Shown here piece by piece: positions 23,319 to 31,084 of a stretch of DNA of 64,000 bases; the first letter of the stretch is position 1; every line of letters begins with the position of its first letter. The notes beneath the pieces are model-generated. The model ran no database searches and was not told where the DNA came from. It worked only from the letters and a program-made list of their open reading frames with translations. This DNA is from Opitutaceae bacterium EW11 (GTDB taxonomy: Bacteria; Verrucomicrobiota; Verrucomicrobiia; Opitutales; Opitutaceae). The stretch is from positions 1 to 64,000 of the forward strand of contig QAYY01000020.1 of the NCBI GenBank assembly GCA_003054665.1, written 5' to 3'. A program made the position numbers and the translations under genes.

Positions 23319-26402
<3,084 letters not shown>

Positions 26403-28912: not shown

Positions 28913-31084
28913 GTGCCCAGTCAGGCCCGTCGGCAGTTCGGTCAACGTCTGGCTCCTAACACACTTTCGATGCTGGCACTTTCTTCACTGTGGGTGGCAG
29001 AGTTCGGAGCGGCCCTCATGCCGCACGGGCAATGCTTCCTCTGGGACGGTGGGCTGATCTCGCTTCACGCCATTTCCGACGGACTCATCGCGCTGGCTTA
29101 TTACGTGATCGCGGGAACGCTGCTGTACATTCTGCGGCGACGCCGAGACATGCCGTTCTCGACGATCGTGCTGCTCTTCGGAGCGTTCATCATCGCGTGC
29201 GGGACGAGCCACCTGATGGAAACGATCACCATCTGGCAGCCCTACTACTGGCTCTCGGGGTGGGTGAAGGCGGTCACCGCCGTCGTTTCGTCGATCGCCG
29301 TCGTCGCGCTCTTCAAGGCCATCCCTTCCGCGCTCCAGCTCCCCAGCCCAGACCAGCTGCAGGAGATCAATGTGATCCTCGAACAGCGCGTGAAGGAGCG
29401 CACCGCCGACCTCTCGGCGTCGAACGAACGTCTCGCGCGCGAGGTGCAGCAGCGCGAGCAGGCCGAAGCGGAGGTGCGTCGCCTGAACCGTTCGCTCGAG
29501 CTCCGACTTCACGAACAGCAGGCGCTCTTCGATCTTCTCCCGGTGGGCATAGCCATCGCTCGCGACGCTGAATGCCGCGAGATCCAGGCCAACCAACGCT
29601 TCGCGGACCTGCTGGGAATCCAGATGGGGACCAACGCCTCGCTCTCCGCGGCGCCGATGCGGGTCCAGCCGTTCCGCGTCTTCCAGAACGGCCGGGAGCT
29701 GCAGCAGGACGAGCTGCCGATGCAGCGCGCCGCGCGGGAAAACCGCGCCGTCCTCAACTTCGAGGAGACGCTGCTGCGCCGCGACGGCACGCAGGTCCAC
29801 GTGGTCCTCAACGCCGTGCCGCTGCGCGACGCCGAGGGCAACGCGCACGGTTGCGTCGCCACCGTGCAGGACATCACCGCGCAGACGGTCGCGACCGAAG
29901 ACCGTCTCGCCTTCGAACGGCGCCTCCAGGAGACGCAAAAACTCGAGAGCCTCGGCGTGCTCGCGGGCGGCATCGCCCACGATTTCAACAACCTCCTCAC
30001 CGGCATCCTCGGCAACGCCAGCATCGCCCGCCTCGAGCTGCCGTCGGGGCACGCGCCGGTGCGCGCCGCGCTGGACAATCTCGAACACGCCGCGATGCGC
30101 GCCGCCGATCTCTGCAAGCAGATGCTGGCCTACGCCGGCAAGGGGCGTTTCGTCATCCAACCGCTCAGCCTCAGCGGCCTGATCAAAAACACCGCGGAGC
30201 TCCTCGAGGTTTCGATCAGCAAAAAGGCAACCCTCCAGCTCAACCTGGCCGAAGGTCTTCCGGCCGTGCAGGGTGACGCCACGCAGATCCGGCAGGTGCT
30301 GATGAACCTCGTGATCAACGCGTCCGAGGCGATCGGCGACCGGTCCGGCGCGATCCTGGTCCGCACCTCGCTCGTGCAGGCCAACCGCGAGTACCTCGAA
30401 ACAAAAGCGTTTCGCGAGCAGGTAGAGGAGGGGTCGTATGTTTGTCTCGAGGTTTCGGATACCGGTAGCGGCATGGATCGCGAGACGCTCGCGCGCGTGT
30501 TCGATCCGTTTTTCACCACGAAATTCACCGGGCGCGGCCTCGGCCTGGCGGCGGTTCTCGGCATCGTCCGCGGCCACAAGGGCGCGATCCGCGTCACGAG
30601 CCAGCCCGGGAAAGGCACGGAGTTCGAAATTCTCTTCCCGGCCCTGGGCCAGCTCGCGACCCCGCCCGACCCGCTGATCCACGCCGGGGCGGAAGGGGCG
30701 CGCAGCTCGATGCCGGTCATGGTGGTCGACGACGAGGAGGCGGTTCGCGCGGTCGCCGTCCGCGTCCTCCGCAACTCCGGCTTTCGCGTCGTCCCGGCGG
30801 AAAACGGTGTCAAGGCCCTCGAGATCCTCCGGGCGGATACCGAGAAGTTCGCCCTCGTGCTCCTCGACCTGACGATGCCCCGGATGGACGGCGAGGAAGC
30901 GTTCCGCCTCATTCGTGAGATCAAGCCCGACGTGCCCGTCGTCATCATGAGCGGCTTCAGCGAGCAGGACATGGCCGACCGGTTTTCCGGCTTGCGCCTG
31001 GACGGCTTCGTCGAAAAGCCGTTCAGCGCCGAGACGCTCCTCACCAAAGTGCGCGCCGTGCTCGGGCGGCAGGTCCCCGCCTAG
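28913..31084 (+). CDS. Hybrid histidine kinase with ethylene-receptor-like copper-binding sensor
   Basis: 723 residues from a GTG; an ATG at 28970 is an equally good start. Three transmembrane helices (~48-72, 84-105, 115-136) match the ETR1 sensor. ISDGLIALAYY contains the counterparts of ETR1 Asp25 and Tyr32 (Asp56, Tyr63), and FGAFIIACGTSH contains those of Ile62, Cys65 and His69 (Ile93, Cys96, His100). Cys and His are the Cu(I) ligands for ethylene. ETR1 Pro36 is Ala67 here. A coiled coil, PAS (~200-325), HisKA (GGIAHDFNNLLTGIL), HATPase (DTGSGM, GRGLGLAAVLGI) and receiver (LLDLTMPRMDG) follow. Ligand binding is inferred, not shown. Confidence 0.88.
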   Translation: MPSQARRQFGQRLAPNTLSMLALSSLWVAEFGAALMPHGQCFLWDGGLISLHAISDGLIALAYYVIAGTLLYILRRRRDMPFSTIVLLFGAFIIACGTSHLMETITIWQPYYWLSGWVKAVTAVVSSIAVVALFKAIPSALQLPSPDQLQEINVILEQRVKERTADLSASNERLAREVQQREQAEAEVRRLNRSLELRLHEQQALFDLLPVGIAIARDAECREIQANQRFADLLGIQMGTNASLSAAPMRVQPFRVFQNGRELQQDELPMQRAARENRAVLNFEETLLRRDGTQVHVVLNAVPLRDAEGNAHGCVATVQDITAQTVATEDRLAFERRLQETQKLESLGVLAGGIAHDFNNLLTGILGNASIARLELPSGHAPVRAALDNLEHAAMRAADLCKQMLAYAGKGRFVIQPLSLSGLIKNTAELLEVSISKKATLQLNLAEGLPAVQGDATQIRQVLMNLVINASEAIGDRSGAILVRTSLVQANREYLETKAFREQVEEGSYVCLEVSDTGSGMDRETLARVFDPFFTTKFTGRGLGLAAVLGIVRGHKGAIRVTSQPGKGTEFEILFPALGQLATPPDPLIHAGAEGARSSMPVMVVDDEEAVRAVAVRVLRNSGFRVVPAENGVKALEILRADTEKFALVLLDLTMPRMDGEEAFRLIREIKPDVPVVIMSGFSEQDMADRFSGLRLDGFVEKPFSAETLLTKVRAVLGRQVPA

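Follow-up and report, generated by a model that had tools for sequence, protein, structure and literature searches.

Putative ethylene receptors are in print for several bacterial phyla (PMC11819568), and for two of the bacterial proteins, SynEtr1 and AzoEtr1, ethylene binding has been shown experimentally (PMC6682694; PMC11819568). Bacterial ethylene receptors are therefore not new. AzoEtr1 of Azospirillum brasilense has an N-terminal three-helix ethylene-binding domain, a PAS domain and a histidine kinase. It keeps all seven of the residues without which, according to alanine scanning, ETR1 does not bind ethylene, is 525 aa long and has its receiver in a separate downstream gene (PMC11819568). 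The cyanobacterial proteins SynEtr1, GeiEtr1 and GeiEtr2 share the domain and a single N-terminal cysteine, and SynEtr1 has a phytochrome-like domain (PMC6682694).

A hybrid histidine kinase of Opitutaceae bacterium EW11, here called the EW11 kinase, resembles these bacterial proteins in its sensor domain. Like AzoEtr1 it continues with a PAS domain and a histidine kinase, whereas it carries its own receiver and has Ala at the position of Pro36; the phytochrome-like domain of SynEtr1 is a further difference. The plant receptor ETR1, which signals to CTR1, shares with the EW11 kinase the PF25487 domain, the copper ligands and the form of a hybrid kinase with receiver, but has a GAF domain where the EW11 kinase has PAS, and Pro36 where the EW11 kinase has Ala67. 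We take the seven residues of ETR1 to be D25, Y32, I35, P36, I62, C65 and H69. The Lys, Thr, Ser and Pro of helix 3 are also common to ETR1 and the EW11 kinase.

The features of the gene are listed in Table 1, with positions given in the window, that is, the whole stretch of 64,000 nucleotides of EW11 DNA that was analysed. The table also lists the phage loci discussed below.

Table 1. Features of the EW11 kinase gene (window positions), and phage loci with the same domain and their neighbours
Feature	Position	Strand	Basis or match value
Hybrid histidine kinase gene, 723 aa	28913..31084	+	ORF list, translation; open frame, GTG start; in-frame ATG at 28970 (Met20) a plausible alternative
Ethylene-binding domain ETR1_N (PF25487), three predicted membrane helices	29054..29341	+	Pfam E=3.5e-36 in genome search; AF2 helices
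Cys41, lone N-terminal cysteine, as in cyanobacterial receptors	29033..29035	+	script-checked numbering
Asp56 (ETR1 Asp25)	29078..29080	+	script-checked numbering, alignment
Tyr63 (ETR1 Tyr32)	29099..29101	+	script-checked numbering
Ile66 (ETR1 Ile35)	29108..29110	+	script-checked numbering
Ala67 in place of ETR1 Pro36, the only one of the seven binding residues not kept	29111..29113	+	alignment, script
Ile93 (ETR1 Ile62)	29189..29191	+	script-checked numbering
Cys96 (ETR1 Cys65), predicted Cu(I) ligand	29198..29200	+	script-checked numbering
His100 (ETR1 His69), predicted Cu(I) ligand	29210..29212	+	script-checked numbering
Lys119, conserved helix-3 lysine	29267..29269	+	script-checked numbering
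PAS domain, residues 206-324	29528..29884	+	PAS_4 E=2.1e-10
HisKA dimerisation domain, residues 350-408	29960..30136	+	23.9 bits vs Pfam cut-off 26.9; H-box by sequence
Phospho-acceptor His356 (within HisKA)	29978-29980	+	H-box by sequence
HATPase_c catalytic domain, residues 454-577	30272..30643	+	E=3.7e-20
Receiver domain, residues 602-714	30716..31054	+	E=1.1e-24
Receiver Asp652	30866-30868	+	by sequence
Domain-bearing phage locus, Molly_1 gp65	L136:5890-6759
Domain-bearing phage loci, IMG/VR	L028-L031, L033-L035, L139, L144, L148, L150-L152, L154, L155, L159, L168, L169, L173
Molly_1 neighbour: endolysin	adjacent		2.7e-27
L155 neighbour: holin	adjacent		1.2e-6
L169 neighbour: holin	two genes on		1.1e-19
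L035 neighbour: endolysin; plus weak spanin-like neighbour	about 2 kb off		6.4e-16 lysis category; 4e-88 to endolysin family filed under head and packaging
L139 neighbour: Rz-like spanin			1.1e-4
L029 neighbour: endolysin	two genes on		4.1e-5
L031 neighbour: large terminase			1.9e-158

The Pfam domains of the EW11 kinase stand in the order ETR1_N, PAS, HisKA, HATPase and receiver. This bears out the initial annotation, which had described a three-helix sensor at 28913-29350 (codons 1-146) followed by PAS, kinase and receiver domains; the H-box GGIAHDFNN is present although HisKA falls 3 bits below the Pfam cut-off. Both the phospho-acceptor His and the receiver Asp of a hybrid kinase are found in the core that follows the sensor domain, together with the catalytic motifs searched for. 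PF25487 matches the stretch 28913-29350 with 125 bits against a cut-off of 27 (E=1.1e-36), which places the sensor in the family, and with the whole protein as query it covers residues 48-143 (E=2.6e-35). An AlphaFold2 model of the sensor domain, built on 36 aligned domains for the stretch from Met20, predicts three long helices, as expected of three membrane helices (26-56, 63-88 and 92-121, numbered on that stretch), with mean pLDDT 87.3, pTM 0.73 and 86 of 134 residues at a pLDDT of at least 90. No solved structure of an ETR1_N domain was found by sequence profile, and none at E<=0.001 by fold search. Searched against NCBIfam and the PDB, the kinase half has CckA-type hybrid kinases among its best matches (CckA models at 276 and 249 bits; 5idj). 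Identity with CckA was rejected: the 276 bits compare with an NCBIfam equivalog cut-off of 1000, and the sensor differs.

The CGTSH motif of the sensor does not serve as evidence by itself. The pattern TGYGGNACNWSNCAY occurs 6 times in the genome and its reversed control 8 times, which is the level of chance. A five-residue motif at chance level could be taken to mean a coincidental match in an unrelated three-helix domain. That reading is already refuted and retains a vanishingly small probability, as the 125-bit match spans the whole PF25487 model and the EW11 domain is 46-60% identical, mostly over 110-130 residues, to the best 80 of at least 557 loci. These best 80 relatives come from cyanobacteria, Verrucomicrobiota, Pseudomonas and a few others.

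The EW11 genome contains one ETR1_N match at E<=0.001, the EW11 kinase, and the 14 control genomes contain none. Within the family Opitutaceae, a search with PF25487 at E<=0.001 gives matches in 18 of 150 genomes (16 above the cut-off), and one with the EW11 domain as query in 32 of 252; for the phylum the PF25487 figure is 24 of 387 (23 above the cut-off). The genus is represented in the collection by the EW11 genome alone. Orthologues from other Opitutaceae and Verrucomicrobia (L067, L058, L057, L056, L060 and L012) have their domains arranged as in EW11 and kinase halves 49-58% identical to its own, and all of them align with it through the receiver apart from L012, which ends at the end of its locus. 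The same gene is thus found in relatives, in the 32 Opitutaceae genomes and as these orthologues, and judged by sequence the EW11 kinase is a member of an established, scattered family and not an oddity. The orthologues make it a further bacterial ethylene-receptor-like kinase of the SynEtr1 and AzoEtr1 type. A literature search, judged by title and the start of the abstract, found no verrucomicrobial ethylene receptor. One of the orthologues, L057, comes from a MAG record labelled Akkermansia muciniphila; it groups with an Opitutaceae MAG (100/91), and the label may be wrong.

The EW11 kinase has D Y I A I C H at the seven ethylene-binding positions of ETR1. Six of the seven residues are kept; the full set of seven that would mark an ethylene receptor is broken by Ala67 at Pro36, and the Cu(I) ligands Cys65 and His69 have their sequence equivalents in Cys96 and His100. 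The initial annotation had numbered Asp56, Tyr63, Ala67, Ile93, Cys96 and His100 correctly, as a script check confirmed, and had called the ethylene-receptor copper site intact. The copper part of that description stands, with Cys96 and His100 in place, as do six of the seven residues. With Pro36 replaced by Ala67, and Pro kept in the nearest relatives, to call the whole site intact says too much: the copper part looks complete, and the part for ethylene lacks one residue. Ala67 is encoded by GCG and the following Gly68 by GGA. Because both differ from the usual Pro and hydrophobic residue, a single-base sequencing error is a poor explanation. I35, P36, I62, C65 and H69 have been described as essential for ethylene binding and as near modelled ligand sites (PMC6586836), and P36L is among the gain-of-function ethylene-receptor mutations in squash (PMC8012379); a literature search did not find P36A by name. 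When the conserved Asp is changed to Asn, affinity drops about 100-fold; the pairing partner of this Asp is a conserved lysine (PMC13012798). By alignment, both are kept in the EW11 kinase.

Conservation was counted over 112 bacterial domains, EW11 included, 77 of the rows being drawn from the best 80 of at least 557 relatives that were found by either of two patterns, an N-terminal Cys motif or an Asp...Tyr motif. The duplicates L056, L070 and L102, nine viral loci and the weak matches L022, L023, L024, L052 and L053 were left out of the 112, and the same three duplicates were left out of a seven-site count over 77 loci. As the survey patterns ask for the N-terminal Cys or for Asp...Tyr, conservation of those residues is biased; the positions of Cys96, His100 and Pro36 were not asked for. 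Near-identical strains, among them 11 Pseudomonas, count several times among the survey rows.

Of these 112 domains, 77 of them drawn from the best 80 of at least 557, 97 have D Y I P I C H. At the Pro36 position 102 have Pro, 7 have Ser, 2 have Ala (the EW11 kinase and L083, a Microcoleus) and 1 has Thr. On the same 112 domains, again with the best 80 of at least 557 included, the Cys96 equivalent is kept in all and the His100 equivalent in 110; the Ser98 and Pro110 equivalents are each kept in 112 and the helix-3 Lys (in EW11 Lys119, which we take to be ETR1 Lys91) in 106, all three being present in EW11; the N-terminal Cys (EW11 Cys41) is found in 109, a figure inflated by one search pattern; and Gly follows the Pro36 position in 2. 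The 77 named loci (the best 80 of at least 557, minus three duplicates) include 74 with D Y I P I C H; the three exceptions are cyanobacterial, L065 with Thr, L083 with Ala and L094 with Ser and Tyr. The Tyr of L094, found also in L044, stands in place of the copper ligand His69, and the Ser of L094 in place of Pro36. The positive control, L109, aligns with the EW11 domain throughout, and its seven sites are D Y I P I C H, as PMC6682694 says of its receptors; by record coordinates it lies at the GeiEtr2 position of that paper, assuming that the same record was used.

Thirty Opitutaceae loci were fetched with the EW11 domain as query, L203 being EW11 itself. The 15 nearest to EW11 (L204-L218) keep Pro. 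The initial annotation had asked whether close homologues lose the Cys or the His; all 15 keep both. The more distant of the fetched loci have Pro in 4 and Ser in 9, and L219 could not be read by the script. Ser at Pro36 characterises a kinase sub-family in Opitutaceae (L013, L014, L016, L018, L020, L221, L223 and L225-L231), of which the one scanned, L014, has HisKA and HATPase domains and no receiver match. A domain tree of 111 rows, which also leaves out L021, places EW11 among Opitutaceae and other verrucomicrobial rows at an open, weakly supported fork (92/72). On this 111-row tree the ten non-Pro rows represent six changes, three of them forced by well-supported branches, and five of the seven Ser rows are one starred clade.

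The replacement of Pro36 may be read in several ways. The bundle might keep Cu(I) and have no useful ethylene binding, so that it reports copper, redox or a different Cu(I) ligand, for instance CO or acetylene. The protein retains the metal ligands and has lost a residue on which ethylene binding by ETR1 depends, while Ser stands at Pro36 in a sub-family of the same family (L013, L014, L016, L018, L020 and nine loci of the further survey) and Thr, Ala or Ser in three cyanobacterial loci among the best 80 of at least 557; such variants suggest that change at this position is tolerated by evolution. However, the equivalents of Asp25, Tyr32, Ile35 and Ile62 are all kept in the EW11 kinase, and we regard this reading as rather unlikely. 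It is possible, if doubtful, that the protein is an ordinary ethylene receptor in which compensating neighbouring residues of helix 1 make Ala67 neutral. In the Ala and Thr rows, only three in number, the usual Ser two residues before this position is replaced by Val or Ile (V/A, V/T and I/A), which could be compensation. But Val or Ile also precedes Pro in five rows of the 112 domains (best 80 of at least 557 included), the nearest relatives of the EW11 kinase keep Pro, and alanine scanning found Pro36 necessary in ETR1 (PMC11819568; PMC6586836). Finally, the sensor could be decaying, the kinase being kept for input through PAS or a partner and the membrane domain serving as an anchor only. 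Ala67-Gly68 replaces Pro and a mostly hydrophobic residue, and among the 14 rows of the weakly supported group just one has a longer end branch than EW11 (0.55). Such decay is improbable in a gene with an open frame that keeps the other bundle signature residues and the catalytic motifs looked for.

The explanation that we favour, and consider probable as a whole, is that the EW11 kinase is a bacterial ethylene-receptor-like membrane sensor kinase, with a Cu(I) bundle, most likely ethylene as its ligand, and a phosphorelay. The match to the family model, the existence of orthologues and the retention of the Cys/His pair all support its being a putative copper sensor kinase of the ethylene-receptor type. 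By analogy with the described receptors, Cu(I) is most likely bound and the signal is most likely ethylene or some comparable small ligand, for which the affinity may have changed; with Pro36 replaced by Ala67, we expect ethylene to bind less well than to ETR1 or AzoEtr1, or in a different way, without binding necessarily being lost.

Domain order, kept copper ligands and orthology are results of computation; copper binding, the ligand, the direction of signalling and the partner we infer. A dimer of three-helix bundles would hold Cu(I) between Cys96 and His100 in the membrane, with one Cu(I) per monomer by analogy with ETR1. A small ligand coordinating Cu(I), most likely ethylene, would alter the bundle, and this change, acting through helix 3 and the PAS domain, would alter phosphorylation of His356. 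Phosphate would then pass from His356 to Asp652 of the protein's own receiver and on to a separate phosphotransfer and output protein. The copper could plausibly be supplied by a CopA-type Cu ATPase of the EW11 genome (580 bits against a cut-off of 397), a family that matches all 14 control genomes.

Among the neighbours scanned (FKBP, cyclophilin, YgjP-like and ACT proteins), no response-regulator or ethylene gene adjoins the EW11 kinase, and as candidates for a functional partner none of these neighbours was informative. A second hybrid histidine kinase is encoded at 23319-26402 of the window; its 1027 aa include two receivers and three stretches of PAS type. It lies 2.5 kb upstream of the EW11 kinase, upstream of the cyclophilin and FKBP genes, and has no ETR1_N match.

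Azospirillum, the genus of AzoEtr1, is a diazotroph. EW11 is likewise predicted from its genes to be a nitrogen fixer, since nifH scores 446 bits and nifD 669 bits, both above the NCBI cut-offs. The nif cluster (L239:8830-19675, EW11 contig C8 from 16829) holds nifH and nifD, then by eye nifK, nifE, nifN, nifB and nifV. A link between ETR1_N and nitrogen fixation was considered and rejected. The domain is found in 4 of the 16 Opitutaceae genomes with nifH above the cut-off versus 28 of the 236 without it (Fisher p=0.13), and we therefore claim no association between nifH and the domain.

Phages encode kinase-less ethylene-binding domains, some of them beside lysis genes, and this is less expected than the EW11 kinase. 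Viral contigs scanned with the EW11 domain gave nine loci, mostly short proteins with the domain and little else. A pattern scan of viral contigs gave 35 matches, of which our own profile keeps 27 and rejects eight (E above 1e-6). Thirty chosen records, 29 IMG/VR contigs (some near-copies) and Maribacter phage Molly_1, match PF25487 above the cut-off; they were chosen as matching, and 30 of 30 is thus not a sample. ETR1_N is the only Pfam family above the cut-off in all 12 whole phage proteins scanned, so that these contain no kinase. Longer domain-bearing proteins also occur on viral contigs: L147, L170, L172 (481-aa frame), L165, L171 (390-aa frame), L149 and L027. Beside two of the longer viral domain proteins lies a gene that is receiver-like by sequence (L197:5896-6237 and L198:7405-7836).

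Among the IMG/VR contigs there may be prophages or host DNA wrongly classed as viral; the phages of Maribacter have been isolated. The domain is present in eight Maribacter phage records, corresponding to six phages (Molly_1 to Molly_5 and Colly_1), where the protein that contains it is annotated as hypothetical. A tblastn search of 50,697 phage records with four phage or EW11 domains as queries found 8 records, all of Maribacter phages; the queries L029, L144 and L159 found none in these 50,697. The three phage domains given to PHROGs matched no PHROG family, and literature searches, judged by title and the start of the abstract, found no phage-borne ethylene-binding domain. In 23 aligned phage rows the Tyr32 equivalent is present in 22 and the Ser98 equivalent in 23, neither being part of the search patterns; the Asp25 position is Asp in 15, Asn in 7 and Gly in 1, and the Pro36 position is Pro in 14. 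The phage patterns ask for Phe-Ile, Cys-Gly and Thr-His, and conservation of the phage Cys and His is thus by selection; Molly gp65 and L139 were found without such selection.

In Molly_1 the domain is carried by gp65, a protein of 289 aa (ETR1_N E=1.5e-16 at residues 36-125), of which the remainder has no assignment. The gene directly precedes gp66, an N-acetylmuramoyl-L-alanine amidase, and follows gp64, whose sequence shows a single helix and a tail of coiled-coil-like character. In PMC8776804 the amidase is the sole lysis gene listed for Molly, membrane proteins are noted near the lysins of the phages described, and the word ethylene is absent. The model of the L029 domain has a pLDDT of 88.6. 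With both the EW11 and the L029 models the best viral structure match, and the sole one at E<=0.001, is a 289-residue protein of the length of gp65, and we infer that it is gp65 or a near-copy. PHROGs gave a lysis-category neighbour at E<=0.01 in 6 of the 14 phage records examined (Table 1) and none in the other 8. An adjacent, same-strand, one-helix charged protein of 60-200 residues accompanies the domain in 8 of 20 short-domain records versus 9 of 240 control frames taken from the same contigs (Fisher p=4e-6); because the one-helix criteria were set after the contigs had been viewed and the controls include spurious frames, this is a lead and not a test.

A joint interpretation of the bacterial and phage proteins would be that the copper bundle known from ETR1 serves generally as a switch for small ligands or copper, with uses beyond ethylene, retuned by the change of Pro36 to Ala in EW11, and that its kinase-less phage form, in or near the lysis module, could be or control a holin and so time lysis by copper, redox or gas. 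We regard this as a long shot. If real, the phage proteins matter more than the EW11 kinase, and Maribacter phage Molly_1 with M. forsetii offers a cultured phage and host for the phage domain. With the EW11 kinase itself, the bacterial ethylene-receptor-like kinases gain a member from Opitutaceae, and the survey yields natural variants of the site, with Ser, Thr or Ala at Pro36 and Asn at Asp25. With Ala at a position found essential by scanning in ETR1, in a gene that looks to be working, the EW11 kinase provides a natural test of the need for Pro36.
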